A DNA stretch of 64,000 nucleotides, from positions 616,295 through 680,294 of the forward strand of contig NW_026570296.1 of NCBI RefSeq assembly GCF_019649055.1, in the 5' to 3' direction. The notes under the pieces are model-generated. The model worked only from the letters and a program-made list of their open reading frames with translations, did no database searches and was not told the DNA's origin. The position numbers and the translations under genes were made by a program. Shown in pieces: positions 8,118-48,312 of this stretch (its first letter is position 1; every line of letters starts with the position of its first letter). Source of the stretch: Paramacrobiotus metropolitanus (Eukaryota; Tardigrada; Eutardigrada; Parachela; Macrobiotidae).

Positions 8118-8461
8118 TCTAATGCTAGATCCAACTGTGATCCAGATACGGAGACCTAAACGGAATAGATCCCGTGGAGTGAGCTATGCGATTAGTATAG
8201 CGAACTACGCGTAATCACGAAACGTCGCACCGCTAATAGCTGACTTTTAATTAATTGAAAATTCCGACAACAGAAAATCAATAATGATCGGCGCAGCTCG
8301 ATCGTAAAGCGTGGAGCCCATTCAACAGTGTGTAACACTGTGCAGCACGTGCTATGCCGCGCCCACTAACACAACTCAAGCCAATCAGAAGAGACACAAC
8401 ACAGACACGTAATCCAGTGGCGTAGCGTTGCGGACGTGAACGCTAGTGAACCCCGCTCACA
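8118..8461 (-). repeat. 3' LTR of element 1 (344 bp)
   Basis: In element sense it begins TGTGAGCG and ends GCATTAGA. It matches the 5' LTR at 32243-32587 except for four instead of five C's near the U3 end. It contains a palindromic E-box (CACGTG), an inverted CCAAT box (ATTGG) and a CAGTGTGTAACACTG hairpin. The sequence just upstream in sense is not clearly purine-rich, so the polypurine tract is uncertain. Confidence 0.95.
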
Positions 8462-9901
8462 TGCCTCTGGGGGGATGCCGAGCTCCTGTGAGGCTGGACA
8501 CACTCCCAAATCCACGAAAACGACGGTCGCCGGTGTCTGTGCGTGCTCAAGAACATCAAATTCTCTTAGTCCATGTTATCACATCAATTCCGTAAAGGCA
8601 CAATTCTGTTTAATACAATGTGAAATAAAGAGATCCAATTATAAAAATACTATCAAATCATTAGGAACAGATCAACAATAACAGATCAACAAAAGTATTA
8701 ATCAAATTGTAGACTAGGATCCTCCATTTCTGACTCGCAAAGGTCACAGGTCCTGTCCACCGTTTTCTGCACTTTGGCCCATTCCGCTCTGTTGAGCAAG
8801 TCCGCGCATCCGTAGTGCGACTTTTCATCACAATCCGCTTGAGAATCAGGTGCGTATCAAGTACGACTTAGGAGTACTGCTTCAATCTTTGGAATATGGT
8901 GCGTATCATTCGTACGACTTCAAAATGAGATCCAATAAAGGTCATGGAGGGACGTCAATGAAGACAAGCGTAGTTCGCTTCCTCCCTGGTAAAGGTCATC
9001 CTTTGTTGAGATGATCCGTTGAGATGTGCGACTCGTTTTGGGTTAATGGTCCCAAAGGTCATGCGACTTGAATTCCGATACGGTGACTCTATTGGGCAAT
9101 TGATGATCCCAAAGGTCATCCCACTCGTCAAAACTTCTGTTAAAGGTCATGGAGGGACTTAGCCGATTTTCTGCGGCTTCAAGCACTTCTTTGCTTGCCT
9201 TCCTGGTAAAATTTGCAGTTTGACCTTTCCGTCGCACATCCAACTTCAATATGCCTCGAGCGGCCAGAGTGCCGGCAAGTTTACCGTAGCATCTCTGATG
9301 GGGCCGGCTAGTTACCGCATTAAGTTTACCCCATGAAATTTCCATCTTAAATCTTTTACTCTTGTTCGCCGCTTGTGGCTTACGTTAGTACGAGAAATCC
9401 GGCTTGATTACCGTAGTTTTTCTCGTTTTAATTATAACACTGAATCGCTTGAAAAGAGTGCCGGCATAGTTTACCGTAACAACTCTAATGAGGCCGGCTA
9501 ATTGCCGCATTAAGTTAACCTCATCAATATTCCACCTGTTGTCTTTCTCTTTTTCGCCGCTTGTGGCCCCGTTTCGTATTCAAGAGATCCGGCTTGATTA
9601 CCGTAGTTTCTCTTGTGCATTTATAACACTGAGTCGCTTAGAGAGGAGGGCCGGCTAACTGCCGTAGCAACTCCCTTGGGGCCGGCTTTATAGACCGAAT
9701 CAATTTCAACCCCAATAGATATTCCACATGATTTCTTTTAGGCAATTCTGTGCTATAAACGCTGCAAACAACAAATACACGAATGCAATTAATGTTAATA
9801 TGTCATATGTCACGGCCTTTATACAACACCATTTTCATCTTTGTGACGTACCGACAAATGCCGTAGACGTCCTTTCAATAGTGTGATCCTAAAGGTCAAC
9901 A
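8462..9901 (-). other. 3' untranslated region of element 1
   Basis: No convincing coding frame. Counting from the LTR inward it holds several plus-oriented AAAGGTCA octamers (near 8739, 8939, 8992, 9054, 9112, 9145, 9891), a repeated GGTGCGTATCA...GTACGACTT phrase near 8850 and 8910, and the hairpin array 9265-9715. The array lies in an imperfect tandem repeat of roughly 190 bp that also repeats TTCGCCGCTTGTGGC. Confidence 0.7.
9265..9715. repeat. Array of eight related stem-loops (CCGG...CCG core)
   Basis: Hairpins at 9265-9297, 9298-9334, 9390-9426, 9455-9486, 9488-9524, 9591-9615, about 9654-9674, and 9676-9715. Each has an internal CCGG-N7-10-CCG core, usually followed by TA or CA. The outer stems differ but pair: CAGAG/CTCTG, ATGGGG/CCCCAT, ACGAGAAA/TTTCTCGT, AGAGT/ACTCT, ATGAGG/CCTCAT, CAAGAGA/TCTCTTG, a weaker GGAG/CTCC, and TTGGGG/CCCCAA. 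Changing stem sequence with pairing kept is what selection for structure would give. The array is also present in element 2 (49108-49560) and one copy of the motif is in the 5' leader (31806-31839). Confidence 0.8.
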
Positions 9902-12558
9902 CTATTCCATTTCATTTGAATCGCCCTCGCCATCTCTCGGCGGGCGTTTCTTAGCGCTTTCCGGTTGGTTTCGATCGGAAGTTCGGTCAACTGGTTCCGT
10001 CGAGTCAACTTCCATGACCTTTGTCGGATCAACTTCGCGCTGGCCACGACCCTTCCCTTGGCGACTGCGCTTAACCGCCTCTAGTCGATGGCGCGCATCA
10101 TTTTCTTCCAGTCGCAGCCTTCGATTATCAGGGTCATCTGCCAATCGACGCTGCACGTCGGCGAGATTATCCCGCAGCTGTTGGTTTCGTATGCCGCGTC
10201 GTCCCATCTGGTTAGGCGCACGGTCTGGGCGACGGTCACTTTTCTTCACCAAGAATTCATCAATGTAAGTTTCGATTCCGTCCACCGGTTCGACGTATTC
10301 ACTTCCCAGAGAATCTTTGATCTTATTAATCCTTTCTTCAACTTGGGATGCGTGGCGCTGTGTCAAGTTGCCCTTTTCCATTCGTGTCTTGCACTTTTTC
10401 AGCGCCTTGCGAGCCGTATGCGCTATGCTGATATGTTCCATCGGTTGTCCCAATTTAGCGACATGAGCTCGGAAGAACGGTGGAATGTCATCTTTCATGG
10501 TATTAGACACCAATTGATTTTGTGTCTTGTAATGTGCCAGTCTCGCAGCAAAGACCTTTTGCCCCATCCTTTTTGCGGCATAGTCCTTAGGATCCACCTG
10601 TAGTCCTATCGATGCCCTTGCTGCAAGCAACTTGAAAGCTGGATTCACATGTCGTAGAACAAACTGAGCCACGTATTCTTGGCGTTCGGGATAGTCTCTG
10701 TAGTAGAACTGTGTCATCCCGATTGGGTCAGTTGTGTCCAGCGGTACATCCAATAAACTTAAATCCACCAAACTGTGTAGCCCATTCCGTCTGATAGGGA
10801 GATAACAGTCCCGTACTGAATCGCGGTGGATGAATAAACGACGGAAAAGTCCTTGTTCGACTCCTTGTTTAATCTCTCTCGCGTATCCCGAATCAAGTAA
10901 GAATTGGCTCAACTGTCTCAGAATTGTGCCAATTTTGTTGGCTTCAACCGAATCCGGCTCAAGTCCAAAGTATCGACAAATTTCGACCGTTTGCTCATCA
11001 ATATCAGTCGTCTTGTATTCCATGTCGATACTTTCAGGACGTCGGTTGTCAAATCTGGAGTTCTGTCGCTGATCAGCCCGGCGATGATTATCCGGTTCTC
11101 GTTGACCTTCTGGTTCCCGTCGCTCTCCCGACTCAGGCTGCGACGGTTCGTTACTCGCCGGTTGTTCCGGTTGGAGGTCACTATCCAGAATTACATTTCG
11201 TCGATGGGTCACGTTCTCTTGAGACGTTTCCGCAATCGAGCTGGTCCCTTCCATTTCCACAACGTGAACCACTGACTCCACCCGCTGATACTTTGGGGGT
11301 GAATCTTCTCGTTCAGTGCTTGATGACCTTTTACTTGCGCCCGAGTCAAAGGTCGCATAAAATGCGGCTCTCTGTTGCCATCTCTTATCCTGTGGGTCAG
11401 GCGTTCGATTTCGCGTATGTTCACGTCTTTTATCCCATGACCTTTCGGGTGTTGACATCCTGACATTGCGGTTCCGGAATGCAACTCCCATCGGCACCTG
11501 ATGCCCTTGTTTTTCAGGCTCTGCACGGAACGTCTCCGCACGCCGTTTTTGAATACTCATTTCCGTAACTTCGTCTCCATGGCGCACCCATCCTCTTCCG
11601 CCACGGTAATCTCTATCATGAGAACGTTCGCGTGACCTTTCGTTGCGGTAGTCACGTGTCCTTTCACGAGAGTGTTCGCGTGACCTTTCTCTCTGTCGTT
11701 CAGAAGTTCGCTCATATTCTCGTGAATGTCCGCGTGACCTTTCTCTATGCGGGGGCGAACGTGGTCGTATAAAGCCTTCGTCCCGTTTAACATTTCTTAA
11801 TGCCTGCAGCACATCGCTTTCGGTTCGGCGAGATTTACGTAGGTCATCCATACGTCTTTCGACTTCCTTCTTTATGTAGGGTGCCGGCGCGAACCCGTCT
11901 TGAAGTCGTTTCTTCTCCCGCAACAGCATTTGAATACCTCGTCTGACATGGCAGCTGGATCTTTCGTTATCGTTTCAATTTGTATGATAAGTGATTGTCG
12001 TACAAGTTGCATTTCGTCTTCGTTAAGGCTGGCCATGCCCGTAGGTGCAACTAAACTCGATGTGCTGGGCAGCCCCTCTCGTGCAGCCTGTTCACTTGCT
12101 CTCTTATTTTCCGCATTAATTTTCGCGCGGATTTCGTCTTCCATCTGCTGAGCTCGCATCTTCGCTTGGTCTTCTTCAAATTTCTTCCGATACGCGTCTG
12201 TCTGTGGACACTTCAACGGCTCCAAGGTGTCATCCCAGCCAGGTTCGTTGTTTCGGATCGCTTCTCGGTAACGATCTTCGAATAGCATTCGCTCTTCTAC
12301 TGGGATGCTGCCGTAATTTCTTGCGCTTATGAGATTTCGAAAAACGTCCAAGTTCCCACGTTTGGCTTCCATGATCCCAACAAGCGTGACGGTATGTGGG
12401 TCTTCCAGCTTGTGAATACAAGTGTAGCAAGGGAATTTCTTGTCAACCTTTTTGTTGTTCCTTAAGCAGTCCGGACACTTTGGATTATAGCCCGTAAACT
12501 GATCGATGTCTGCCGCCATTCCCGAACGTTTAGAAGGGGCTTGACCTTTTTGTGCCAT
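9902..12558 (-). CDS. Retroelement accessory ORF C: zinc-ribbon-like, RS-rich protein
   Basis: Start taken at the ATG at 12558 (MAQKGQAPSKR), 13 bases after a strong splice acceptor. Near the N-terminus there is C-x2-C-x12-C-x2-C (CPDC ... CYTC), a possible zinc ribbon. A charged helical stretch follows (FEEDQAKMRAQQMEDEIRAK), then a long Arg/Ser/Glu domain (RERSRGHSREYERTSERQRE), and a conserved-looking C-terminal region (TVEICRYFGLEPDSVEAN; HRDSVRDCYLPIRRNGLHS) ending in a basic tail. In element 1 the frame is broken near 11929 by a three-T run where element 2 has four; in element 2 that junction is open. No transmembrane segment or signal peptide is visible, so it is not env-like. I do not recognise the family; RNA binding is suggested only by composition. 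Confidence 0.7.
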
Positions 12559-12570
12559 CTTTCTCTTCAA

Positions 12571-12585
12571 TCTGCAATTATAAAA
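12571..12585 (-). promoter_or_regulatory. Candidate 3' splice site ahead of ORF C
   Basis: In sense the sequence TTTTATAATTGCAG ends just before ATTGAAG and the ORF C start codon, a good match to an intron end. It suggests ORF C is expressed from a spliced subgenomic RNA. The same sequence is present in element 2 near 52450. The matching donor was not identified. Confidence 0.5.
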
Positions 12586-12588
12586 CAA

Positions 12589-12886
12589 TCCATCATAGTA
12601 ACCTTTTCGACGTTAATCCTTTCCATGTTAAGGCTTTCTATCATTTTTACGCCTATTCCGTTACTGAGCTGAGACTTTCCTAGCTCCTGCTGCCTTTTCT
12701 ATCACTGTAACGTGGTGACCTTTCTCACGTTATCAGCACTTTCTGACTACTGTGACCTTTTCTATTAGTCCTAGTACTGCTTTCAGTTGACCTTTCGTAA
12801 CACTTTTCGCTTTCGTTTTAAACTGTTTTATGCTTTTTCTGTAATATGCAGGGTTCATTACTCGCTGCATATCACACTATATTAGT
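12589..12886 (-). other. Spacer between ORF B and ORF C
   Basis: About 300 bp without a sustained frame, rich in TGACCTTT octamers in plus orientation (near 12718, 12747, 12789). It would be the polypyrimidine-rich intron tail if the acceptor at 12572 is used. Confidence 0.5.
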
Positions 12887-15800
12887 TCACTCGGATTCTT
12901 TCGTCGATGGTTTATACGGCTTAAAATCGATTCGGCCATCTGGCTTAATATGAAGCACTTCGTCCGAGATCAAGGCTTCAACGGCATTCTTAATCCACTC
13001 CTTATCGCTTTCAATATTCAATTCTCCCAATTCATAATTGACGGCCATGAAGTTCGAAAGGTCATTCCATGACACGCCATTGGTACCACCAATGGCGTCC
13101 AGAGCCACATCTGTGATGGCTATCTTCCAGGCCTCCAGTTCCATTTTCAGTCTGGGCGTTCGTTCCGTGCCCTGTTTCGGAAGGTAGTAGACGACTTTGT
13201 TGTCTTTGTTGTATTTACATCCCAACTTTCCTTCCTTATATGCTCGTTTGAGAGCTCGTTCAGTCATGTTAAGTGACGACCTTCCGTTCGTATTTATTGC
13301 CACTTGTCTTTTCAGGTCTGTCCCAAGCATTTCTTTTTCCCGAATAATCTGGAGTGCAGCTTGGACTTCGTTCCATGTGCGATTATTCACGTCCAATGCC
13401 GGCCCTAACGTGTAATCTGTAGCCTCCTTTGCCGGTGTGCCGCTACTTTTCTGGGAGGATGTCGAGTCCGTTGGGTCGGCTGTCACTGTTTCGTCGATCC
13501 TCAGCTTTGCCAATGATCCTGATGATGACCCCGCCGATTTTGGTTCGGCTGTCTTCTTCTCCTCTTGCGGCAAAGTCTCTTGACCTTTTAGATCGCCGAC
13601 CGATTTCGATCGTTCCTTCTCAAAGACCTCCTTTAATGGTATGAACAGTGATTTGTGAAACACCTGTCGCGCCGAATCCGCTTCAGCTTCTGCCGCTGCC
13701 TTATCCATCGGGAGCATGACCTTTTCTTTCTCCCGTTTGTCTGAAGCCTCATGACCTTTCGGTTGAACTTCTGCGGTAGTTTCAGATGTCTTCGGACCTT
13801 TCGACTGTTCATCTTTTTCTGTCGTAAGTCCAGAAGGAGCCGTTATAGTAGCGTCGTCGTCGCTTTCCGATTCAGAATCCATTGGGCCTTTTGTCTTCGA
13901 TGAAACTGTGACCTTTTCCATATCCTGACTGTCGGACATATTACAGTGGATCTGTCTTTCCGGTGGTATTAGACCAACTCTCGTGTATCGGATCGGGTGT
14001 CCTTTATGTGCGTTTGTCGTGGCAAGGACGTTCTGTTTAATCAACTTTGGCAATACGCGCTCGGTTGCCGTGTCGATCTCCTTTATCATTCCATTTCCGT
14101 CGTTCCAAACTGCGTTGATGTATTGGCTAATCCGGTGACTCGTTGACCCTAATGGGCTTGTCATTCCCGCGATTGCCCTTTCTACTCGCATTGGGACCGC
14201 TTCATTCGGAGTTGTCAGCGCTTTATCCGAACTGGCTGGTCTGAACAACTTGGCCTCATACGAGAAACTCGGGTGCTTCTGTATAAGTTTTCCTGCGTTC
14301 CGCGCGAATTCCAATACGACGTCGAACTTTTGTTTAGTGAAGCTACGATGTTGTTTCTTCAAATACGTCTTCAGGCCTGCTTTAAATTTGGATGTCACCG
14401 ATGCCGTTCTTATTCGTGTGAAATTCTTTTCAGCTCCGTTATACGCTCTGATTACTTCATCGACCGTGTTCAAATTATCATCATCGGGACCATCAAATTC
14501 TTCGTCTGAGGTGAAGTCCAGTTCACTCTCCCCATCTGGTTCAGTGTAATTAACCGTCGCTAATGCGTCGATTTTCGTGACTGTCTTGCCCTTTCCTTTG
14601 GTTTTAACGGGTTCGCTCTTTGCTTTTTTCCCTTTATCCAGAGCTTCCGCTAAGCTTCTTGGTTCAGTGGTTCTTGATCGTGTCGTTTTCGAGTCCGTGT
14701 GTGACCTCGCACTAACCGTCGAAGTGCTTGGAAGGCTCACTTCCGATGCCTCCGATTCACGCGACGTCTCCCGTTTCGCTTTTTCGCGAATCTGTTTGTC
14801 CTTGCGCTCCTTTGGCGTGGATGCGGAAATGACAATGGGGACAGCTTGTTTCACCGCTATGACCTTTCCTTTGGGCTTTAACGGTTCTGACGTAGCCGAA
14901 TTAATAACTTTCTTTGAAGTCGTAGGTGTTGATGACCTTTCCTCAACTTCGCCGACTGACTCGTCCAATATCTCGACGTCATGCGACGCTGGTTCATCTC
15001 TTTTCTTCTTCCCGGTGCTTGTGCTATCGCTTTCGTCACCGCTCTTCTTCTTCTTATCTTCTTCCTCCTGTCGTTTCTTCTTATCTTCTTCCTCCCGTCG
15101 TTTCTTGAGAAAATCGCCTTTCTTAACCTTGTCACGGTTCATGGCCTCTTCCAATCTGGGCGCTTTTCTCGGTTTGACTTTTGAGGGCTTGACCTTTAAG
15201 GGCTTTTTATGCTTGTCGGCCGTTTCTTCGTCTGAGCCTTCTTCCTCAGGTGGGTCCTCGTCTTCCGACTCTGGTTCGTCGTCACCAGGTGGATTACAAT
15301 GGGCACAGTTTGGTTCATCACACTGAAGGTGCTCATGACTTCCTTGGGCAATCTCAAGTACTCTTTGTAGCGAGCGTCTGGCCCCTCCTGTTTCAGTTAC
15401 ATTTGCCGACGTGCCCTGCGCCTCTTCCGTCTCTCCGGCTCCGCCTTCTTGTGCCGGGGGATGAATTTCCAAGTGTCTTGTCTCTTTCGGAGATCCCTGT
15501 GAGGCGACCTCCCACAAAGGGTTCTTCTTAGCGTCGTAAAATACCGTTTTGTACGTTCCATCTTCCATTCGTCTTGTGAGTCGGAAATGTGCTCCATCGA
15601 TCTCCGCTCGATGCCGCATCATGCTGATGAGTGTGCTCGCTTGAACCACGGCATCTTTTCGGTCGCTTTCAGGTATCAGATCCCATAGCTGGTCAATAGC
15701 TGCCTGATTCGCATTTCGGGCGCTCTCTTCTGATACATCCCATGGGGCATATGGGACCGGGTCTCCTGTTATTGGGTCAACTATCACCGCAGTTATGGTT

Positions 15801-16468
15801 TCCGTAGCTTCTCCATTGTCAGCGAAAAGTCTGAGGGTGACCTTTCTGCTTGTCGCCTCTGTATACCTCGGGACCGACTCATAATCATCTGACGATCGTT
15901 TCTTCGGATCTGGATCCGCCGTCGGTTTTGAGCGAGTTCTCTCTTTGATCAACAGTTTGCCGTCCGTTGTGTATGTATATGCCAAGTGGTCATCATCTGT
16001 GCCCACTTTGATACGGATCCATGCATCTTCTTCGGTTGCAACTTTAGATACCACGTGCTTCATCATCTGAACGATAACTCTTGGGTTATGACGTTCTTCT
16101 GGAGGAATAAACTGTAGCGCCTCATTGACTATCGTTTTTGACTCTTTCCCAATGGCATCCTTGACTGACCTATCCGCGAGGGGATTATACGAGTCGATCT
16201 CTTTGTTCGTTTTCTTATCGACTATTCGTGCAGTGACCTTTCGTTCTTTATGATCTTCCCCAGTGTATTTGGCCGTGAAACTTCTACACTTCGGGAATCG
16301 AATCTGACCTTCTGTTCCTTTCGGCGTGGGTGGTACACTCTTTCTACCCACTGGAATCGGGGCCTGTGGCTTTGCCGGCTCAGCTGGTGTTGCTTTGCTT
16401 TCTGTGGGCTTCTTTGTTCGCTGCCCTTTCTTATCAGTTTCTTTTGGGCTTGTCGTCGGTGATCTCAC
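12887..16468 (-). CDS. Retroelement accessory ORF B, about 1190 aa, duplicated domain plus winged-helix-like C-terminus
   Basis: A single unbroken frame of about 1190 codons, open from after a TAG near 16517. The first in-frame candidate start is a GTG at 16468 that overlaps the stop of ORF A by four bases, so translation may need reinitiation, a -1 shift from ORF A, or splicing. Residues ~55-180 and ~200-325 look like two copies of one domain: each has (I/V)VD..T....Y.P, then a helix with IP...R and M.H, then a polar strand region (GKLLIKE / KNPLWE). A long acidic and basic disordered middle follows, then a helical region (YLKKQHRSFTKQKFDVVLE). The last ~90 residues (ITDVALDAIGGTNGVSWNDL, NAVEALISDEVLHIK) have the pattern of a winged helix and recall the linker-histone H15 fold; that is inference. 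No similarity to env or enzymes was recognised. Confidence 0.75.
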   Translation of the reverse strand: MRSPTTSPKETDKKGQRTKKPTESKATPAEPAKPQAPIPVGRKSVPPTPKGTEGQIRFPKCRSFTAKYTGEDHKERKVTARIVDKKTNKEIDSYNPLADRSVKDAIGKESKTIVNEALQFIPPEERHNPRVIVQMMKHVVSKVATEEDAWIRIKVGTDDDHLAYTYTTDGKLLIKERTRSKPTADPDPKKRSSDDYESVPRYTEATSRKVTLRLFADNGEATETITAVIVDPITGDPVPYAPWDVSEESARNANQAAIDQLWDLIPESDRKDAVVQASTLISMMRHRAEIDGAHFRLTRRMEDGTYKTVFYDAKKNPLWEVASQGSPKETRHLEIHPPAQEGGAGETEEAQGTSANVTETGGARRSLQRVLEIAQGSHEHLQCDEPNCAHCNPPGDDEPESEDEDPPEEEGSDEETADKHKKPLKVKPSKVKPRKAPRLEEAMNRDKVKKGDFLKKRREEEDKKKRQEEEDKKKKSGDESDSTSTGKKKRDEPASHDVEILDESVGEVEERSSTPTTSKKVINSATSEPLKPKGKVIAVKQAVPIVISASTPKERKDKQIREKAKRETSRESEASEVSLPSTSTVSARSHTDSKTTRSRTTEPRSLAEALDKGKKAKSEPVKTKGKGKTVTKIDALATVNYTEPDGESELDFTSDEEFDGPDDDNLNTVDEVIRAYNGAEKNFTRIRTASVTSKFKAGLKTYLKKQHRSFTKQKFDVVLEFARNAGKLIQKHPSFSYEAKLFRPASSDKALTTPNEAVPMRVERAIAGMTSPLGSTSHRISQYINAVWNDGNGMIKEIDTATERVLPKLIKQNVLATTNAHKGHPIRYTRVGLIPPERQIHCNMSDSQDMEKVTVSSKTKGPMDSESESDDDATITAPSGLTTEKDEQSKGPKTSETTAEVQPKGHEASDKREKEKVMLPMDKAAAEAEADSARQVFHKSLFIPLKEVFEKERSKSVGDLKGQETLPQEEKKTAEPKSAGSSSGSLAKLRIDETVTADPTDSTSSQKSSGTPAKEATDYTLGPALDVNNRTWNEVQAALQIIREKEMLGTDLKRQVAINTNGRSSLNMTERALKRAYKEGKLGCKYNKDNKVVYYLPKQGTERTPRLKMELEAWKIAITDVALDAIGGTNGVSWNDLSNFMAVNYELGELNIESDKEWIKNAVEALISDEVLHIKPDGRIDFKPYKPSTKESE

Positions 16469-17784: not shown

Positions 17785-17909
17785 TAACTGTGCTTACCTT
17801 CTATAGAAACGAAACAAGAAAGGTTAACTTTTGCACAGTGGTGACCTTTCTTTTGCCTTCCCAACTCCTATCTTTAATTTAATGTGACCCCTTATTTATG
17901 TCTATGTGG

Positions 17910-20073: not shown

Positions 20074-20189
20074 CGCTTGTGCTTAACTTTGTCCGTTTCC
20101 CAAAGGTCATCTCCTATTCTCCGCTGCTTTATCAAGTCCCGTGACCTTTCCATTATGAACTTCGGCCTCCACTTCAAGTCCGGTGACCT

Positions 20190-24900: not shown

Positions 24901-25477
24901 TATCTCCCACTTTCACTTCATGTGTGTATGCTTCAATTCTCTTGGGCAATTTTCCGTTTTGAATCTTCAAGGTGTGAATCTTACATTTCACAGGGATAAG
25001 CGATACTGGTCCCGGATCCATATCGGGAAGCACTTGTCCTTTTGCTGGAGTGCTGTGACCTTTCAGTATCTCGCTCAGCTTATCAATCCTATGTGGAACG
25101 TTAGTCCGAACATCGTAATATTTTCGCGGCTTTTCTTTATTTGTTCGCTTCTCTGTAGCCATTTTATCACCGGTGACCTTTTCCACGTTCTGCACTTGCT
25201 CATTTGCTTTTGTGCTATCCATGTGACCTTTAGTCACTTCATTTATCGTTTGATGGATCAGTTCCTCTTTGCGATTTTCATTTCGTTTATCTCTCAACTT
25301 CTCAATGACTTCACTTGTTATTTGGTCCGCTCGCTTCAGTTCGTCTTCTTCGCTATCTTTCTTCTCATCTGGTGACCTTTCATATGTAACCATGTCATAT
25401 CCCTTTTCGGTCATCCATTGCATCACTTTTGCAGATACTTCATTGTTCGTTTTCGTTGGGTCAATTTGCGAAGACAT
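21983..25477 (-). CDS. pol: Protease-containing ORF of Pol, about 1160 aa with long disordered linkers
   Basis: A retropepsin domain lies at residues ~165-300: the active site LDTGAETSLIS (codons for DTG at 24872-24880), and the late hydrophobic motif VLLGFDFLEKKF. Retropepsins act as dimers and cleave the polyproteins. The remaining ~850 residues are mostly charged and disordered, with four copies of an IPVPEAP/IPVPEAL motif (plus-strand positions near 24090, 24272, 24332, 24481), a Cys-rich patch (CHHGYFEDPCRVQPQWECAE) and a folded-looking segment with many Trp (WNRYRTWLSCVESFIIGRGR). The linker between protease and RT is far longer than usual. The frame shift into RT at 21983-21986 coincides with a C run of three here and four in element 2. 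Confidence 0.85.
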   Translation of the reverse strand: MSSQIDPTKTNNEVSAKVMQWMTEKGYDMVTYERSPDEKKDSEEDELKRADQITSEVIEKLRDKRNENRKEELIHQTINEVTKGHMDSTKANEQVQNVEKVTGDKMATEKRTNKEKPRKYYDVRTNVPHRIDKLSEILKGHSTPAKGQVLPDMDPGPVSLIPVKCKIHTLKIQNGKLPKRIEAYTHEVKVGDIKVNAMLDTGAETSLISKPFCEKNGLHMLPLPPDRLVKINGISGTSGFLVTHYCVAPVTLRKKTSEHSFYVRPKCDDVQVLLGFDFLEKKFVLMDNEGEEEKEDDPKPVAKVQVGKVTELVKQTGNSQTVNKTLIPVPEAPGNEKKKMTRKDLSPFEQLQMIQQEIENTLNRTMPTQKGREKVIPVPEAPGMTRVQPNEISQRIIPVPEAPEKKSESGKVKEVNEKKKEPLAPDTDEAIIFLPDGRSMIADECKQGDTEKGVEKAIPVPEALEIKTAKVGKDKKSERLRVLKRIVEEEQMFTSEIRDKALEQLKGHRTEKEPEVIEISSEDKSVTPIECEEDTTVQEQVKPEASQRTLTPEERAGSCHHGYFEDPCRVQPQWECAECCENASQDDPSEWLRCNAALADLKGHAQKKAKSIMRTNEMWKPHIERYHWNRYRTWLSCVESFIIGRGRWLNHWLQRVEKGIQDPLDPVATEKRFEREIEEMTEEGEMWEEARVDLFWDFRVNHMYKGEGRTIIFPAGLGTPVYESLEVYYNALKEGNEKAFEKYWKKFEEEIPKFDVKEMRELQVTRKRRLPGLMQKKKVTFAPDPDGVDYPERGGDTWCMYETIPNDEWVTEELMANCIFVGPKRPKGYETVQQDEADKGTPKEAEKEEPIKEIAEGQSNETEESSKSAFDIAQMLTDRGEMWKRFKEEVERISNEQQNPATEAKNAERSLDNGEECPPVELTEKPLTSREEINELEKSKSDEERSNSDQLERSPTRIRVARSHPRVAARTGRKAKEGDKPLLKNSKAKKLSESRENESDLSSEDEGVDERPLEKANKGQATAQEYESSNSDSEWTSSSDNSTTSEDSGVSDLSEQEDLMDLDEDDEVDEEKEKDIKVRRLKVEKARMSKDVIKVYSDQRIKLKPSNCTRVKVKMGKYAPAQNKLMFTPVPQVETEVQPLAGVTDHRENTSKSLSQITVANTES

Positions 25478-25580
25478 CCCGTCTGTTCGGGCTGGTGACT
25501 TGTCATTGGCATCCTTTTGCAGTGCTTGTGATAAGTCCCGTGACCTTTCAACTGCGCTACTCTGTTGCGTTTGCGCTATC

Positions 25581-26864
25581 TCATTTGTCCTGTGACCTTT
25601 GGGCTAAGTCCTGTGACCTTTCGTTGCGCTTCATGACAAATCCGCCACCTGTCAGCTTTTGTATGGGGACTTTTTCTCCATAATTCGGCGGTTTATCCTG
25701 TGGTGGAGCATTGCGTGAATGATTCCAGTCAGCGAATGTCTTCTTATATTCCTCTGGATTGAATACTGGGATTGGGTTCGGTGACCCTTGCGCTGGTTTC
25801 CCGGTAACCAACTCTTCTAGTCGCTTTCTTTCACATTGCGTTCGCAACTGTTGCATGTCCCAGTAGTCCTCTTGTGACATTTTCGCTTTCTGCTTTGCCT
25901 TCGGCGTTACGGGTATCCACATCCCGTGATTGCCATTCGGTCTGTAGGCCACTTTTTGCCACTTTTCCTTCTGTTGCAGCGTTATTGCATCTACAAGTGA
26001 GTCATCGGAGTTCTGTTGTGCCAATTCGCCATTCTTTTGCTGCGCTGTTCGCAGTGTCAAGTCTGTTTCTTGACCTTTTAACACGACGCTGTCGCCGTGA
26101 CCTTTTGCATTCGCACTCGCTCCTTGACCTTTAACTTGGACTTTTCCAACAGAAGGTGACCTTTCATCTTTACTAATGACGGTGATATTCTGCTTAATCC
26201 ATTCTTGCCTTATTCGCTTCTCTTCTTCGTCTTCTGAACAATTCCAAAACTTTGGCTTTGGTTCCCCGTAACAATCGCACCTTGGCTCATTCGCCTTGTC
26301 GTTTTCTGCCAAAAATTTCCGGAATTTCGCGTGTTGCTCATTTTCCTCTTGCGCAGTATCGTTCTGCGGTGGTGATTTTTGGTCGTTCGACTTGCCATTT
26401 ATCTGTTTCCGGAACCATTCGTGGTGCATTTCCACTTCTTCTGCGGTATCAGTTTGCGGTTTCTTTTGGTTTAACAGCGCTTGTCGAATCTTGGCATTAC
26501 GTAATGCACGACGTTCAGCTAACACTTTCTCGCTGCAATACGGTGACCTTTCATTTTGCTGCACTTTTTGCAGTGTCGCGCTACCGTCACGACAATTCCC
26601 ACTCGCAGTACCATTCTGCGGTGACCTTTGGTCCCGTTGCACGTTTCCACTCGCAGTACCATTCTGCGGTGACTTTTGATTCTGTGACGGTATCCCCATA
26701 ACCGTTCCATTTCCTTTTTGTGATGACGGCATCCATATAGCCGTCTCTCTTTGCTGTGGCGGCATCCATCTAGCCGTTTCTTGTGGTTGCGGCATCCATA
26801 TAGCCGGTCCATTTTGCTTTTTCGCTAACGGCATCCATATAGCCGTTGCAGTGGTCATATTCAC
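25581..26864 (-). CDS. Repeat-rich linker ORF between nucleocapsid and protease, about 430 aa
   Basis: The frame opens within the end of the Gag frame (shifted by -1 relative to it, near 26945) and stays open to 25581; the first candidate start at 26864 is GTG, so it is probably translated by frameshift or is one frame with Gag before an indel. It is built of short tandem peptides: AIWMP-type units (four or more copies, plus-strand CGGCATCCATATAGCCG near 26733-26850), QNGTASGN units, and DQKSPPQNDTA / ERSP units. Composition is Gln, Asn, Lys, Pro-rich and disordered. Many units are encoded by the AAAGGTCA octamer (ERS, KGQ, KGH). No enzyme motif seen. Confidence 0.6.
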   Translation of the reverse strand: MNMTTATAIWMPLAKKQNGPAIWMPQPQETARWMPPQQRETAIWMPSSQKGNGTVMGIPSQNQKSPQNGTASGNVQRDQRSPQNGTASGNCRDGSATLQKVQQNERSPYCSEKVLAERRALRNAKIRQALLNQKKPQTDTAEEVEMHHEWFRKQINGKSNDQKSPPQNDTAQEENEQHAKFRKFLAENDKANEPRCDCYGEPKPKFWNCSEDEEEKRIRQEWIKQNITVISKDERSPSVGKVQVKGQGASANAKGHGDSVVLKGQETDLTLRTAQQKNGELAQQNSDDSLVDAITLQQKEKWQKVAYRPNGNHGMWIPVTPKAKQKAKMSQEDYWDMQQLRTQCERKRLEELVTGKPAQGSPNPIPVFNPEEYKKTFADWNHSRNAPPQDKPPNYGEKVPIQKLTGGGFVMKRNERSQDLAQRSQDK

Positions 26865-26944
26865 TGCAGTACCATTCTGCAGTGGTGACCTTTCCCTTTT
26901 ATCCGGTGGTTTAGGGTCGGGTCGATCAGTAGGCTCACCGGTGC

Positions 26945-28932
26945 CTACTGATCTTGCCCGTTTCCCTGAACCGGCGCTCCACCTTGTTGTACGCCTTGCA
27001 CATTTGCTTGTTGTTGTCCGATATCATTTGCCGGGTTAGGATTCTGTCCGCCACCGTTATTATATTGGCCGCCACCCTGTTGGTAGTTCCCTTGGCCGCC
27101 GCCATTGTTTTGGCCTCCTCTGAAGTTTCCGCGGCCGAAGCCTCTGTTTCTTCCTCTGAAGCCGCCGCGGCCGAAGCCACCGCCGCGATAGCCGCCGCCT
27201 TGGCCGCCCCCATTTCCATTTCCATAGTTCCCGTTACCTTGCTGATTCTGAAAGTTCGCTTTCGCCTGGTACCATTGCGTGATCAGGTCATATCCATTTG
27301 CGACCGCTTGGCGCCAACCACCGAGCCCGCGCAGTCGTTGCCACTCGTTGAAGGCAAACAGGTTTGGGTTCTGTTCCGGTGGTGTGTTGGCGAATTTGCA
27401 TCCCTGGGTCTGGTGGTTGCCATACATACAGTACTGGCACATCTGCACATTGTTCGCCACCCATCCGTCAATCATCTGGAACTTAAACTCAGTTCGTGAC
27501 CCTTGGTTTTGCTGTTGATTCCCTCTGAAGTTCCCTTGACCTTGACCTTGTCCCTGGTTCTGGAAGTTCCCCTGACCTCCATTCCAATTTCCATTTCCGT
27601 ATCCATTTCCGCCAAAGTTACCGTTACCCCCTCCTTGTTGTGGTAACCCGACATTCATAGGGACCATATTCTGTGGTGCAGGTGGGGCCACATTTTGGGG
27701 AGCCACATTCTGGGCTACTGGTCTCACTTGAGCTGCTGCCTGTATCGCCGCCACCATTGCATATGTTATCGGTTGTCCCGTCTGACTGTCGATAAAGGTC
27801 ACCTTTTCGGTGACCTCTCTGACCGGAGTCTCCACACGGTACTCAACCGGCTGCTGGTGCAGCTGCCATTCTCTGTTGCGGCACATTTTCGACTTGGCCT
27901 TGGCGGATGGTCACGTATTCCTGATTACGTTGACCTTTTGGTGCCTTGTATTTTTCTTCGCCCGTTGCCCAATGTCGGAAGAAGTCCTTCACATCCGTTG
28001 GCGTCTTGCACTTTTGTATCCGCAATGCCTTGTAGAGTTCATTGTCTCCTCTACATCCTTCAATTAAGAATCCGACTGCTTGTTTCTCCGTGATGATTCT
28101 TTTTGCTTTGAATCGCATCATCGCCTGATAATACTGGTCCAGCGATTCCTTTCCGAGTTCGAATTTTCTTGCATAGGCTTCACGTAAGCCTAAGACTTCT
28201 TCATCTCGATCACCATATTCATCTTTGAATTTGTCCATCCACTCTGTTATTGAGTATTCAATTCCATCTTCGGCTGCGATGTCCTTTTCTCCCCTTCGAA
28301 CCAAGTTTTGCAGGACCTTTCACCGCACTTGCTATCTCAATCATAATTTGGTCGTCCGTTAGCTGGTAGGTTCTTTGGGTTTCTTTTACTAGTCGTGTCC
28401 ACCCACTCACTGTGTCACGACTGCCGTCAAAGGTCATGAGTGGTGTTTTCCTGGCCATCGAGTTGAGTGCTTTTGTCAATTGCACCGCTGTATTTTCTGC
28501 CCTCTGGTCATCGTCTTCTTCGCTACTTCCATCATCACTTTGATTTCGTTTCGCCTTTCCATACCGGGATTTCCTTAGGACGCTCCTGCCGGCTGGAGGG
28601 TCTGTCCCGTCGCCCTTCATCGATGAACACATTTGTTTCCAAAGTGTGCGGGGAAATTGTGAAGGGTCACCTCGACTCATATGCGGGTAACTTTCCGATG
28701 GTGGCTCTTTGTCATCTTTGCCTTTTCCCCGTCCTTTCGTTTTTGACACTTCCCTTACCGGTACCAGTTCGTAGCGGCATATCGAAGTGGAAGCTTTTAC
28801 CCGTGCCCGTTTCATGCGCCTTGCTGTAACTGGGCGGGGGCGATTCCACCGTTGATGTTCTAACTCCGTGTTGTAGGAGCTGTTCATCTTTGTGTTTGTT
28901 GGACATTTGAAGAGCTTTATTCTCATCTTCAA
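26945..28932 (-). CDS. gag: Gag: capsid and nucleocapsid region
   Basis: Three overlapping frames (28258-28932, 27843-28304, 26945-27886) read as one protein interrupted by one-base shifts near 28290 and 27850. The capsid-like part has PLMTFDGSRDTVSGWTRLV, SITEWMDKFKDEYGD, YARKFELGKESLDQYYQAM and KAVGFLIEGC-like helices as in Ty3/gypsy Gag. The nucleocapsid has one CCHC zinc knuckle (C-x2-C-x4-H-x4-C, codons 27398-27439) between a Gln/Pro/Val-rich stretch and a Gly/Arg/Asn-rich tail (RGGGFGRGGFRGRNRGFGRG), which should bind element RNA. Gag assembles the cytoplasmic particle in which reverse transcription occurs. Confidence 0.8.
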
Positions 28933-30738
28933 GGCGCTTAATCCTTAAATCGAATTGTTCTTTCTCATTCTTCAGGTTCTGATTCTCTTGGTTGACCTTC
29001 GACATCTGCTGATGCAGTTGAAGCGTTTTGTCTTGAATGACCTTTTCAGTATCATTTTCCACTTTCCTGATGTGTTCCGCCAACTGGGTCACATCCCTTT
29101 CCAGCGTCATGTATTCTTCGGCTGCTGCTTTCAGCTGATTTTTCGTCACGGTGACCTCATCTTCTCTTGTCATCGCCGTTTGTGTCATATCAATCAGCTC
29201 CGTATTCAGTCTGATAATCTCCTGTGTCTTCTGATGGACCGTTTGTTGCCACTCTTTATCTTTCAATTCAAGTACCGTGACCTTTTCATCCAGGAGGTGT
29301 GCCTCGTGTTCCCACCTCATGCCTTGCTCGGCAATTGTCTTAGCGGTATTTCTCAACTCGGTATTCTCTTCGGTGACCTTTCGAACATCTTCTTTCAACG
29401 ACTTGTTCTCTTCCATCACCTGCTTAATTTCGTTCTTCAACCGCACACCTTCAGTGGCTGTGAGCTCCCTCAGGTCCTTAGCCACTTTGACAGCGTCATC
29501 GGCTCTCTTCTGATGATCTTGTGATTCTTTCTGAAGGGTTCCAATGTTCTCGTCCCGTAACTTCAATTCATTTCTCAGCTTAAACACTTCGTTGGTGTTT
29601 GTCAACAATCGTTGGGTCGCGTCGACGAGTTTGGTTGCGTATTCATCTCGTTTCGTTTCCGCTTCGGTGACCTTTAGTTTAAGTAAGTCACATTCATCCT
29701 TCAATTCGGCTAAGTGTCGTGACCTTTCCGCTGTTTCTTCGGACATACTCTCGTTAAGGTCACTGACTGCAAGATGACCTTCCATTTCTCTGTCATCTGC
29801 CATTTTCAAATATTCGTCGGCCAATTCCTTTTGTCTTTCGTATTTCACTTTCCAACCGTCTGCGGCACTTTGAAGGTCACCCTGTTGTTGTTCCAGATCA
29901 AACAGGCGGGTTTCAAGTGTGGTCAGTCTTTCTCGGTATTCCTGTTTCCGCTTGTCCGCCTGTCGTTCGTTAACTTCCAGTTCGTTTTCCAATTCGCTGA
30001 CGCGTCTCCTCAAGAGTTGACGTGGGGCTGTTCGGTGACGGCGGTCTGTACATTGATGACCTTTCCAGTTTGTGTCCGTTCAATGAGGTGCTCGGGTATG
30101 TCCTTGAATCGGTGTCATACCTTCAGCACGGTCAGCTTCTTTCATCGCAGTCTGGAAGGACATGTTCATCGTCGCTTCATCATCCGTGAAGTAGGACTCG
30201 TTCGATTCATCTGAGACCATTGGAGTTGACCAAAGGTCATCGCCTGCGGTCTTATCATTCAGTGAAAGGTCATCCAATCCCAGTTCAGTCAGTTCCTCTT
30301 CGGTGACCTTTGTGTTTCTCTCATCCACTTGAGCCAGGTTCACATTTTTATCCTGCTCATTCGTTCCACTGGTGGTAGCATCCGACTGTGATGCTCCAAC
30401 TGATTCCGCTCCTCTTGCTGTGGGTTTATCCTCCCCGGTGACCTTTGTCTGGTTCATCGGATCGCTTCCCGCCGTAGACGCGGGAGTGTGCTTCTGGTCG
30501 TCGCTTGAACTTTCCTGATTGGCGACCGCCTCGAGCGCCTTCTGATAAGTGCTATCAGAGCCTCGTGAATCCTTCTTCTCGAATGCCTTGGGCGCTCGAG
30601 TGTTCCGCTCATGTCCAACTGGACGTGAGTACGGGTACAGATCCTTTTGTATGGATTTGGTGCGCTTTGCTGTGAGCTGCGGGAGCTTTTGCTTCCCTGA
30701 CTGCTGTTAGATGTCGGTTCCTCTTGTTCTTTGTCCAT
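28712..30738 (-). CDS. gag: Gag N-terminal region: disordered head, long coiled coil, PPxY motif
   Basis: An ATG at 30738 (MDKEQEEPTSNSSQG) opens the frame. Shifts near 30620, 30110 and 30015 separate segments 30454-30738, 30080-30457 and 28712-30013. After an acidic disordered head, ~350 residues form an uninterrupted coiled coil (ENELEVNERQADKRKQEYRE; LRNELKLRDENIGTLQKE). Near its end is PPPSYSKA, a PPxY motif of the type that recruits Nedd4-family ligases for budding in enveloped retroviruses. The region then overlaps the capsid frame with a shift between 28712 and 28760. Such a long coiled-coil N-terminus is unusual for Gag and could set particle geometry. That it belongs to Gag is inferred from position. 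Confidence 0.65.
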
Positions 30739-30813
30739 GTTGATCGGATAACTTGGACGCTCCTGTCAATTGTTCTCACACACACGTTATTGTATGGTTT
30801 ATTCAATTGTCCT

Positions 30814-31365
30814 AAAGGTCACTTTGTACCTCCGAAATTTTTCTAAGTCCTTATTAAAGGTCACTTTTCGACTGAAAAATTTCGACCAAGTCCCGTTTAA
30901 AGGTCACTTTTTCGGTAAAAAGTTCGAGAGGTTTGCCCTAAAAGGTCACTTTCGGACAAAACTTCGAAACCGCTTTTACAGTTCGAAATACGTTAGCGAA
31001 TGAAATCCTACAGCTGCTGATATCGCTGTATCACTATTCACTTCAATTTCACTTCGATAAAGGTCACCTTTCGTCAGTTTCAGATCACAAAGGTCACTTA
31101 AATAAGTCAATTAGGACAATTCCAACTTTTTAGTAAAGGTCACTTTTCAGGTCAAAAGTCCTGTTCTGGTCTCAAAGGTCACTTTCCGACTCAGTTCAAC
31201 TCAAAAGGTTGCTTTCTGACTCAATTTCTGTTAAAAGGTCGCTTTCTCGCTCAATTCAAGTTAAAGGTCACTTTTAAGCTCAATTCGATCAAAGGTCACT
31301 TTTCCTTTGTCTCAACTCAAAAGGTCACTTCTCAACTCAATTCAAGTCTAAAGGTCACTTTCCGC
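30814..31365. repeat. AAAGGTCACTTT array in the 5' leader
   Basis: About 14 copies of AAAGGTCAC(TTT), all in plus orientation, in 550 bp. The first four begin at 30814, 30856, 30899 and 30941, spacings of 42, 43 and 42 bp with weakly similar spacers; later copies (near 31063, 31088, 31134, 31174, 31262, 31292, 31322, 31352) are 25-45 bp apart, with two degenerate copies near 31204 and 31236. AAAGGTCA is the published monomer site of NR4A-type nuclear receptors (NBRE); whether any receptor binds here is unknown. Confidence 0.85.
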
Positions 31366-31805
31366 TCAGTTATCTTATCTCAGATCAAATTTCCCATTAC
31401 GACTCAGAGTTCAGCGGAAAATCCCCATTCGGGTTGTTTACTTCGTTCTGATTGGTCCGCTAGCTCAAAATATTCAGTTCAAATTTCGGCCAATCACAGC
31501 TCAGATAACTGACCAATCCCGTTTCACCATTTAAAAATTTTATCTGAGCCTGACGTCACGGTCAACGGCCAGACATGCGCGCCGCGTGCAAAACTCCGCC
31601 TACATCTACGCTCAGCTCAGTACGGACCAATGAAATTGACAATTTTACCATCTAACCAATCCCGTAATTAATAACGGTTTTCTACTCGTTAAACCGTCCG
31701 TTTCCACGAGAAAGTGATCCAGATGATCCAGATTCTTTTTCCACTGTCCGTTCCCGCGCTGCCGCCGGTTTTTCCGTAGCGGTTGTGCCGCCCGCTTTTC
31801 AAATG

Positions 31806-31839
31806 CTACTGTGCCGGCTGACTGCCGTAGCAACAGTAG
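31806..31839. repeat. 5' leader copy of the CCGG...CCG hairpin
   Basis: A perfect 7-bp outer stem CTACTGT/ACAGTAG encloses GCCGGCTGACTGCCGTAGCA, which differs by one base from the core of hairpin 7 in the 3' array (GCCGGCTAACTGCCGTAGCA). The outer stem sequences are unrelated, so the core and the pairing are what is kept. Confidence 0.8.
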
Positions 31840-31925
31840 TGGTGCTCTACTCCAGTTTGGAGGAGTCTGATCTGTCTTTTCCCGTGCGCCCCTTTTAGCG
31901 CTTCGCCGCTTGTGGCCCACGGCTT

Positions 31926-32066
31926 AGGATTCGCTGAATCCTTGCCGAGTATCATGACACCAGTGTAGGTCTTCGCTGAAGACTCTACACCGAGGAACAC
32001 TGACGACTGAACTCTTGCACTCTTGCACAGCAGTGGAACAGCACAGGTCTTCGCTGAAGACACTGT
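31926..32066. repeat. Three GCT-loop hairpins in the 5' leader
   Basis: AGGATTC-GCT-GAATCCT (31926-31942), GTGTAG-GTCTTC-GCT-GAAGAC-T-CTACAC (31963-31990, one bulged base) and ACAG-GTCTTC-GCT-GAAGAC-A-CTGT (32043-32066, one bulged base). The TTC-GCT-GAA centre is constant, the outer stems change but pair, and the bulge is in the same place in the last two. Confidence 0.75.
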
Positions 32067-32231
32067 ACCGAAAACCAAAGCTGGAAAATCCACGTCAGAT
32101 GAGGCCGTTCACCGCTTGTGGTGTGCGCTTTGCTTTTCGAAGGACCTGTGCTTTACTGGTCGGAAATCGCATCAAATAACAGGCCAACTTTGCCTGACAC
32201 AAATCAAATCAAATCAGAGAACCGCTGTCGG

Positions 32232-32242
32232 CTCTGCTACCA
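32232..32242 (-). promoter_or_regulatory. Primer binding site (initiator tRNA-Met type)
   Basis: Directly inside the 5' LTR the sense strand reads TGGTAGCAGAG, complementary to the 3' end of animal initiator tRNA-Met (...CTCTGCTACCA) over 11 bases. It primes minus-strand DNA synthesis. Eleven bases is short but within the range known for LTR elements. Confidence 0.8.
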
Positions 32243-32587
32243 TCTAATGCTAGATCCAACTGTGATCCAGATACGGAGACCTAAACGGAATAGATCCCGT
32301 GGAGTGAGCTATGCGATTAGTATAGCGAACTACGCGTAATCACGAAACGTCGCACCGCTAATAGCTGACTTTTAATTAATTGAAAATTCCGACAACAGAA
32401 AATCAATAATGATCGGCGCAGCTCGATCGTAAAGCGTGGAGCCCATTCAACAGTGTGTAACACTGTGCAGCACGTGCTATGCCGCGCCCACTAACACAAC
32501 TCAAGCCAATCAGAAGAGACACAACACAGACACGTAATCCAGTGGCGTAGCGTTGCGGACGTGAACGCTAGTGAACCCCCGCTCACA
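32243..32587 (-). repeat. 5' LTR of element 1 (345 bp)
   Basis: Matches the left LTR except for five rather than four C's near the outer end. In sense it begins TGTGAGCG (U3) and ends GCATTAGA at the primer site. Promoter-like pieces seen: inverted CCAAT box (plus GCCAATCAG near 32504), E-box CACGTG near 32472, and an AT-rich TTAATTAAAAG that could serve as TATA region. Confidence 0.95.
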
Positions 32588-38687: not shown

Positions 38688-38840
38688 CTACTATGACAAC
38701 TTTCTTGGAATGTGCAAATAATTCGACAGCCTGTAGATTTCTGCCGTTAATCAGGTCATATTTAACGCGAGGCTCCCAATGGTTTCGATTTTGGAACGTT
38801 TTTCAACGTAATAGTGTAAGAAGAGCATTTTTTTAACATA

Positions 38841-47902: not shown

Positions 47903-47952
47903 GTACAAAAAATTGTAGTTTGCCTCAGGTAGTTTGCCTGGATTCAACGTCC

Positions 47953-48312
47953 TCTAATGCTAGATCCAGCAGTGATCCAGATACGGAGACCTAAACGGAA
48001 TAGATCCCGTGGAGTGAGCTATGCGATAAGTATAGCGAACTACGCGGAATCGCGAAACGTCGCACCGCTAATAGCTGACTTTTAATAATATTGAAAATTC
48101 CGACAACAGAAAATCAATAATGATCGGCGCAGCTCGATCGTAAAGCGTGGAGCCCATTCAACAGTGTGTAACACTGTGCAGCACGCGCTATGCCGCGCCC
48201 ACTAACACAACTCAAGCCAATCAGAAGAGACACAACACAGACACGTAATCCTAAGGCGTAGCGCCACAGGCGTAGCGCCACTCACGAGAACGCTAGTGAT
48301 CCCGGTCTCACA
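47953..48312 (-). repeat. 3' LTR of element 2 (360 bp)
   Basis: Clearly related to the LTRs of element 1 but with scattered substitutions, an E-box changed from CACGTG to CACGCG, and a short duplication of GGCGTAGCGCCAC near 48255. It is therefore from a different sub-lineage or an older copy. Confidence 0.93.

Follow-up and report, generated by a model that had tools for sequence, protein, structure and literature searches.

A short DNA word is kept by selection along the internal region of giant Ty3/Gypsy retroelements in Paramacrobiotus metropolitanus and may serve as a family-specific address

The internal region of a giant retroelement in the tardigrade Paramacrobiotus metropolitanus is saturated with one short DNA word, AAAGGTCA followed by A, C or T, which purifying selection acting on the nucleotide sequence keeps in both orientations. 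The window, i.e. the whole stretch of DNA analysed, was 64 kb long and held two such elements, both sense on the minus strand: element 1 (8118..32587, 24.5 kb) and element 2, which runs past the window end and whose alignable part (47952..63804, minus strand) was 94.8% identical to element 1. Exact AAAGGTCA sites numbered 148 in the window (44 on the plus and 104 on the minus strand), with 95 in element 1, 51 from 47952 to the window end in element 2, and the remaining 2 at positions 1786 and 37807. A preliminary description of this DNA had estimated about a hundred octamers in the element and nearly motif-free host flanks, and both estimates were borne out by these counts. Dinucleotide composition predicted 1.15 sites in element 1. 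The octamer ranked top among all octamers there, and the next five (59, 40, 27, 26, and 22 occurrences) all overlapped it.

Element 1 is a Ty3/Gypsy-type LTR retrotransposon (Metaviridae), with direct LTRs, an AGTC target-site duplication at its flanks, and the domain order gag-asp protease, RVT_1, RT_RNaseH, H2C2, and rve (PR-RT-RNase H-IN) on the minus strand in a domain scan. All of its parts described below lie on that strand. The 5’ LTR (32243..32587) and 3’ LTR (8118..8461) were 99.7% identical. By exact count, no site was present in either LTR or in the adjoining LTR-proximal leader of about 0.9 kb (31358..32242), which starts with TGGTAGCAGAGC, presumably a primer-binding-site-like sequence. 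The leader array (30814..31357) contained 12 sites, part of them in tandem units of about 30 bp, and all 12 were antisense, the sense strand reading TGACCTTT. The presumed Gag region (26945..30706) consisted of several frames, and a CCHC knuckle (C-X2-C-X4-H-X4-C) was recognised by eye in 26945-27910; a Pfam scan of three Gag-region frames returned nothing above cut-off. Site density was highest, among ORFs longer than 130 aa, in a linker ORF (25581..26864; 8 sites, 6.2/kb), and the protease and linker ORF (21983..25477) carried 18 sites (5.2/kb), compared with 2 sites in reverse transcriptase/RNase H (20598..21986; 1.4/kb in RT) and 3 in integrase (18778..20073; 2.3/kb in IN), so that the contrast between dense linkers and sparse RT and integrase noted earlier held. 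The accessory ORFs encode 439 aa (16465..17784, 2 sites), 1193 aa (12887..16468, 10 sites), 238 aa (11872..12588, 1 site), and 675 aa (9902..11929, 6 sites). Past the last long ORF, 7 antisense sites and 1 sense site were located at 8739..9898, a region that includes a stop-to-stop frame of 113 aa (9043-9384). The whole window was scanned against Rfam at the gathering threshold and for tRNA genes, with no matches.

Codon usage and protein sequence did not account for these numbers. The 12 ORFs of element 1 contained 61 sites, where 100 codon-preserving shuffles averaged 4.3 ± 2.0, and no other 8-mer reached its z of 28; in 400 such shuffles neither the 52 sense sites (5.0 expected) nor the 9 antisense sites (0.5 expected) were reached. 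Even RT (2 versus 0.1) and IN (3 versus 0.1) exceeded all 200 shuffles despite their low density. Sites in the ORFs were read as K-G-(H/Q) (11), R-S (19), and K-V (22); with three frames in use and conservation at the nucleotide level, a peptide repeat was ruled out, in line with the earlier observation. The ratio of sense to antisense sites was 64:11 in the ORF span (9902-30706), 0:12 in the leader, and 1:7 in the 3’ region (8462-9901), which agreed with the sense bias in coding parts and the opposite bias at the ends described previously. The base after the octamer was G in 0/95 sites of element 1 and in 0/480 sites across 30 clade A copies, and the word is therefore the nonamer AAAGGTCA[A/C/T]. 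Neither even spacing (CV 0.97 versus 0.98 for random placement) nor helical phasing (10.5-bp vector strength 0.10) was found in the body of element 1.

Comparison between copies showed that the word outlasts its surroundings. Across the 30 clade A copies (including element 1), divergence was 0.0096 in motif columns versus 0.057 in 30-bp flanks, a 6-fold difference, and between elements 1 and 2 substitutions were found at 4/412 motif positions versus 107/2767 flanking positions. Against a relative 66% identical (L041), 18/28 ungapped sites of element 1 were retained, where phase-matched flanks predicted 1.7, and 4 of the 6 antisense sites of element 1 were among those retained. Five majority antisense sites were present in 22-29 of the 30 clade A copies, and twelve majority sense sites in 26-30. 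Purifying selection at the nucleotide level thus keeps AAAGGTCA[ACT] through the clade A internal region in both orientations; clade B was sampled too. The preliminary description had proposed a nucleotide-level signal kept wherever the protein tolerates it, together with two checks, and both the excess over codon-preserving shuffles and the persistence of motifs beyond neighbouring sites spoke for that proposal. Sites private to element 1 or L041 faced non-motif letters in ungapped columns in 28/41 cases, and the other 13/41 fell in gapped columns, where insertion is possible. New sites come mostly by point substitution; outside the leader array, insertion or tandem duplication was rejected as the principal origin of sites in the body.

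The word belongs to element lineages and not to the host genome as a whole. In RT and the 1.5-1.6 kb upstream of it, AAAGGTCA sites numbered 7-12 in 32 clade A copies and 14-16 in 3 clade B copies, versus 0-3 in 15 copies of clade X (one with just 187 bp upstream). One clade B copy contained 60 sites versus 6.65 in codon-preserving shuffles (z 21.5), with sense 52 versus 6.4 and antisense 8 versus 0.3 in coding sequence, and 0:6 sense to antisense in the stretch past the last long ORF. Clade X is the sister of A by RT; the protein tree supported A+X at 99/98, and support in the DNA tree was moderate (89/86, bootstrap not settled). Clade X has probably lost the word. At the 27 ungapped sites of element 1, the X copy L042 had no exact octamer, against an expectation of 2.1, and no AAAGGTCA site was common to the two X subclades in the three pairs compared; within one X subclade two AAAGGTCA octamers were shared (7/13 and 8/13 rows). 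The one X copy read further had retained the downstream accessory ORFs although no word was retained between X subclades. An element can thus carry those genes without the word, a point against the address reading given below. Between A and X, accessory proteins were 40-49% identical over alignable parts versus 90-91% for RT/IN, and windowed identity singled out no domain common to A and B against X. Two replacement words were considered for X and rejected. GAGATCA was enriched (18 versus 4.9), yet its 3 majority sites diverged by 0.128 versus 0.117 in flanks, and the degenerate GAGMTSA was retained between subclades at 30%, whereas 101 permuted patterns averaged 39%. Since neither was retained between subclades, we term X wordless. 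The best words in motif-poor X still reached z of about 7, so z-values of that size are weak evidence alone.

Related families appear to have words of their own, although this is shown with less force. In three members of family C, the 6-mer GGTCGG ranked first, second, and tied for first; 19/30 sites were retained between L040 and L063 versus 9.0 expected, but between the closest members, L063 and L064, retention was barely above the flanks (22/26 versus 17.9), and the enrichment of the word was just about 3-fold. On the sense strand of C it was CCGACC that was enriched, 3- to 4-fold, while GGTCGG gave only 6 versus 2.9, 3 versus 2.0, and 1 versus 1.7. In family D, AGCCAG reached z 8-12 and 12/21 sites were retained versus 2.1 expected. 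One D copy had, from its first AGCCAG onward, 65 AGCCAG and 0 CTGGCT, including 11:0 in an ORF-free leader stretch, and the other had 28:1. ATCGA was enriched in family E, tentatively, as this was seen in one copy only, and one tested ORF of a further family (L039, the P0002 family) gave no convincing word.

The reading we favour, tentatively and at slightly less than even probability, is that the octamer is a family-specific address word read by a sequence-specific factor, similar to VANDAL/VANC. A trans-acting factor, most likely encoded by one of the element’s fast-evolving accessory genes, would bind the word; in A and B, where both orientations are enriched and retained, this points to duplex DNA, either integrated copies or cDNA, and in the strand-biased C and D possibly to RNA. 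Binding would single out the element’s own copies to be treated favourably, most likely by freeing them from host silencing. Because such a factor would be common to all copies in the cell, site-rich copies would take a larger share, and this competition would explain saturation instead of a few sites. The wider proposal is more doubtful: that across the giant-retroelement clade each family has its own word through genes and leader, read for self/non-self by a co-evolving, fast-changing accessory protein, with copy competition driving saturation and X having lost its word or standing between dialects. If the address reading is true, an accessory or Gag protein of A elements should prefer AAAGGTCAC over AAAGGTCAG. 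The candidate reader is the 1193-aa accessory protein, which gave a linker-histone match below cut-off and a low-confidence model with a winged-helix-like order of helices and strands. No accessory ORF had a Pfam domain above cut-off; against PDB sequences the 1193-aa profile found nothing significant (one match at E 0.34) and the 675-aa ORF had no match. Confidence was low in both AlphaFold models, whose mean pLDDT was 37 and 44.

An RNA-level address, in which a dispersed sense-RNA signal for Gag packaging, nuclear export or protection is recognised by a family-specific RNA-binding protein, is unlikely but the strongest of the alternatives. The strand bias of C and D, which in D extends to the ORF-free leader stretch, is compatible with RNA reading and speaks against a single duplex-DNA mechanism shared by all families, and packaging selectivity would likewise yield family-specific words. 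Enrichment on one strand only, as dispersed RNA packaging would require, holds in D and roughly in C but fails in A and B, where antisense sites are enriched in coding sequence and, in A, retained almost like sense sites, and where orientation is reversed at the ends; a single-stranded RNA word alone is therefore insufficient in A and B. That same reversal would suit long-range pairing of AAAGGUCA in coding sense with UGACCUUU in the leader and 3’ region, which would compact the genomic RNA or close it into a circle. We consider this very improbable, as leader and coding sites of family D share one orientation, leaving no partner in sight, and pairing offers no reason for the ban on G.

Recruitment of a host factor, i.e. 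the gathering of NR4A-type nuclear-receptor half-sites for germline expression or insulation, is rather improbable as well. AAAGGTCA exactly matches the published NBRE, the NR4A-type half-site, and there is a precedent in the Drosophila gypsy element, which has about a dozen Su(Hw) sites in a single leader region. Element 1 resembles gypsy in carrying clustered sites of the DNA-binding protein type, but differs in having 95 of them along the internal region and a word that varies between families. Its sites run all through the coding sequence, and none lies in the LTRs and LTR-proximal leader, where promoter function would be expected; the strict exclusion of a following G fits no half-site rule known to us. 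The nuclear-receptor binding suggested in the preliminary description is conceivable in A and B but thus unsupported as a general cause, given that sister clade X is nearly motif-free and that NR4A leaves the words of C, D, and E unexplained; we know of no receptor half-site matching GGTCGG, AGCCAG or ATCGA. Least probable of all is neutral spread by tandem duplication, insertion or mutation bias. The octamer does lie within the tandem unit of the leader, and some private sites fall in gaps, but most private sites replaced non-motif letters without gaps, motif columns diverged 4- to 6-fold less than flanks, spacing in the body was random, and the ungapped sites of element 1 were never exact in L042.

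The address reading has its closest parallel in the VANDAL DNA transposons of Arabidopsis, which are saturated by a short exact word, YAGTATTAY for VANC21 and AGTTGTCC/AGTTGTAC for VANC6 (PMC5735166). In the available text of that source, words differ between related families, occur also in tandem repeats, and are read by an evolving, element-coded anti-silencing protein, VANC; they lie in non-coding regions, and motif-free coding probes were bound poorly (PMC5735166). The elements studied here are alike in the enrichment of a family-specific short word (family E in one copy, X without a retained word), and they differ from these plant DNA transposons, as there described, in being animal LTR retroelements with words in coding sequence in all frames and a reader protein that is so far a candidate. 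With 61 sites in its ORFs, element 1 was not filed as a VANDAL/VANC-type member. By size it is comparable to the giant Burro and Ogre LTR retrotransposons, which are Gypsy-like, 16 to over 30 kb long, and contain extra ORFs or domains (PMC6431247). Element 1 is likewise Gypsy-like and giant with extra ORFs, and differs from what that source describes in that its LTRs are short, at 345 bp, and its accessory genes form separate ORFs that follow IN. The available text on Burro and Ogre contains no mention found of a saturating short DNA word (PMC6431247). Within the terms searched, no earlier report of such a word in these elements was found among the matches listed, and the main text of a tardigrade TE paper, in its available part, does not mention Paramacrobiotus. 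The uptake sequences (DUS/USS) of Neisseria and Pasteurellaceae are words of about 10 bp found about once per kb on either strand, tolerant coding regions included, with clade-specific dialects, accumulation by preferential recognition, and a known reader, ComP. Our word is similar in scale, in strand use, in its place in tolerant coding sequence, and in its clade-specific dialects, and differs in that it marks one mobile element instead of whole bacterial genomes and has only a candidate reader.

If the address reading is true, animal selfish elements hold a sequence-coded self-recognition that limits codon choice along whole genes, which to our knowledge was previously known only from plant DNA transposons, and there outside coding sequence. 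The case is tractable, since copies number in the dozens, closely related sister clades either have or lack the word, and the candidate readers evolve fast. It can serve to test how a parasite labels its DNA within that of the host, and what the large accessory genes of some giant retroelements are for. Protein alignments of such elements should be read with caution, as they bear nucleotide-level constraint.

The octamer AAAGGTCA, counted in both orientations, occurred 95 times in E1, a Ty3/Gypsy-type LTR retroelement on the minus strand (window 8118-32587), against 1.15 occurrences predicted from the dinucleotides of E1. The visible part of element 2, a second copy (alignable over window 47952-63804), held 51 from 47952 to the window end, and the rest of the window 2. 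The saturation claimed in the preliminary description was real: the twelve ORFs of E1 held 61 sites compared to 4.3 ± 2.0 in codon-preserving shuffles. Few one-mismatch variants were found, and G never directly followed the octamer, either in E1 (0/95) or at the 480 sites of 30 copies. Genome-wide, AAAGGTCAC occurred 19,414 times versus 3,461 for the reversed control, and AAAGGTCAG 4,042 times versus 2,427 for its control. E1 itself has LTRs of 344 and 345 bp (99.7% identical) and is flanked on either side by a duplicated AGTC. Its protease, RT/RNase H and integrase follow the Ty3/Gypsy arrangement, with four more long ORFs downstream of integrase. A protein search with the integrase ORF as query matched Paramacrobiotus metropolitanus, a tardigrade, at 100% identity across 60% of its length. 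Element 2 was 94.8% identical to E1 over the alignable part and extends past the window end. The 3' region of both elements contained about two tandem copies of a ~190-bp unit (window 9266-9655 and 49110-49484), and a 1193-aa ORF of E1 contained a 27-bp tandem repeat (window 15048-15106) whose counterpart in element 2 (54894-54951) carried indels.

Comparison between copies indicates that the octamer is under selection. Between E1 and element 2, substitutions were present at 4 of 412 motif positions and 107 of 2,767 flanking positions, and 96 of 102 sites were kept when both directions were counted. Among thirty copies compared around RT, E1 included, the mean column divergence was 0.0096 in 17 majority sites and 0.057 in their 30-bp flanks. 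The preliminary description had proposed that the motif is kept wherever protein constraint allows, and its persistence held over a greater distance: E1 and L041, a clade B copy, were 65.7% identical over the aligned stretch, yet 18 of 28 ungapped sites were kept compared to 1.7 expected from flanks of the same codon phase. Of 41 sites private to one of these two copies, 13 fell in gapped columns and 28 aligned ungapped to non-motif letters in the other copy, so that point substitutions made or unmade those 28 sites.

A search of the genome (170 Mb, 533 contigs) returned at least 92 RT matches at 86-100% amino-acid identity, 50 of which, E1 included, were read for word counts (one, L058, with only 187 bp upstream). 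Sites in RT and the 1.5-1.6 kb upstream numbered 7-12 in clade A (32 copies, including E1), 14-16 in clade B (3 copies) and 0-3 in clade X (15 copies), and these counts indicate that the octamer is a lineage trait. The exclusion of G after the octamer was weaker in clade B (8/106), and G followed 3 of the 21 octamers left over in clade X. The RT DNA tree, built from 28 of these 50 rows with a distant row serving as root, placed X as sister to A, with B as the outgroup; A+X support was 89/86 from a bootstrap that had not settled. The RT protein tree (14 rows) gave the same topology (A+X, 99/98). L043 was basal in X by DNA, its placement being left open by protein, and its X-type part retained 9 sites, with 6 of the 8 ungapped ones common to E1. 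Given this topology and these shared sites, the common ancestor probably already carried the octamer, with later loss in X other than L043. One X subclade still had two octamers in common, and one X copy (L042, L061) had none in 18 kb, while its RT/IN was 90-91% identical to that of E1 and its downstream accessory ORFs were still present, two pairs being fused. No replacement word retained within clade X was found. L043 (1-8001) is a composite or nested insertion: pol sequence of family D breaks off inside integrase and adjoins a clade X stretch starting near the RT start.

More distant relatives in the same genome appear to carry other words. In family C (L040, L063, L064; RT 62-64% identical to E1), AAAGGTCA was absent, and GGTCGG was in turn the top-ranked, second-ranked and joint top-ranked 6-mer (38 vs 13.3, 24 vs 8.8, 28 vs 8.7). 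It was retained at 19 of 30 sites between L040 and L063 (9.0 expected), and in the close pair L063/L064 at only 22 of 26 (17.9 expected). In family D (part of L043, L065, L067; RT about 53% identical to E1), AGCCAG was enriched (29 vs 10.2, 30 vs 8.6) and retained at 12 of 21 sites versus 2.1 expected. ATCGA (50 vs 18.7) is tentatively the word of family E, represented by one copy (L066). Since the best z-values of motif-poor clade X were near 7 in the same enrichment test, the enrichment in family E would be insufficient by itself, as would that in family C if it were not replicated and retained.

The most likely reading is that a sequence-specific factor acting in trans, probably element-encoded, recognises its own family by the word, and competition among copies for the shared factor would have led to saturation with sites. 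Both orientations were enriched and kept in clades A and B, and their end sites had the reverse orientation to most coding sites. In E1 coding sequence, sense sites numbered 52 vs 5.0 in codon-preserving shuffles and antisense sites 9 vs 0.5, so that the 52:9 bias ran in the direction imposed by codons (5.0:0.5). Duplex DNA would thus be the simplest substrate in A and B. Our first guess for these clades is anti-silencing, because the sites are spread through the internal region, leave the LTRs free and are consistent with duplex DNA. The chief alternative, packaging or export, would be a better fit for family D, in which one copy had 65 AGCCAG and 0 CTGGCT (counted from the first AGCCAG onwards) and the other a strand ratio of 28:1. 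The 65:0 count takes in part of the leader (L067, 2868-4231) with no plus-strand ORF of at least 100 aa, where the ratio was 11:0. Family C was clearly enriched only for sense-strand CCGACC. This strand bias in C and D is at odds with a single mechanism for all families; either the use of DNA or RNA varies by family, or some process in D and C is directional. Upstream of the family D leader, L067 (1-1500) contained CTACGCGCG-type short repeats, possibly a family D LTR or a host satellite.

As to the reader, accessory proteins of A and X were 40-49% identical over alignable parts, compared to 90-91% for RT/IN. Such very fast evolution is what an arms race would produce in reader proteins, but it is also expected of disordered proteins. 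The accessory genes (L061, L062, window 9902-17784) evolved much faster than RT/IN, and pairs split in E1 were fused in the X copy. The 1193-aa ORF had a sub-cutoff match to linker histone and, near its end, a helix-helix-helix-strand-strand order in a low-confidence model, which makes it a candidate reader as a lead and no more. NR4A binding, raised in the preliminary description on the basis of the NBRE half-site, would account for the sequence of the A/B word, but for neither its loss in X nor the words of other families.

The closest known system is VANDAL/VANC of Arabidopsis, where short family-specific words differ between related families and are bound by an element-encoded protein, leading to methylation loss (PMC5735166). 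It involves another host and another element class, and its words sit in non-coding DNA, whereas E1 ORFs carry 61. Confinement to non-coding DNA, a defining feature of that system, was thus not seen in E1, and the tardigrade elements are therefore not filed as members. Statistically, bacterial DNA-uptake dialects are nearer to the tardigrade words than VANDAL/VANC is.

The window also contained other repeats. Two ~3.6-kb stretches between the elements (35258-38764 and 41462-45051) were about 70% identical, ~150-bp dispersed repeats lay outside both elements near 2331, 7560, 38549, 39736 and 44855, and a perfect 68-bp tandem repeat of 1.9 copies occupied 38840-38967.
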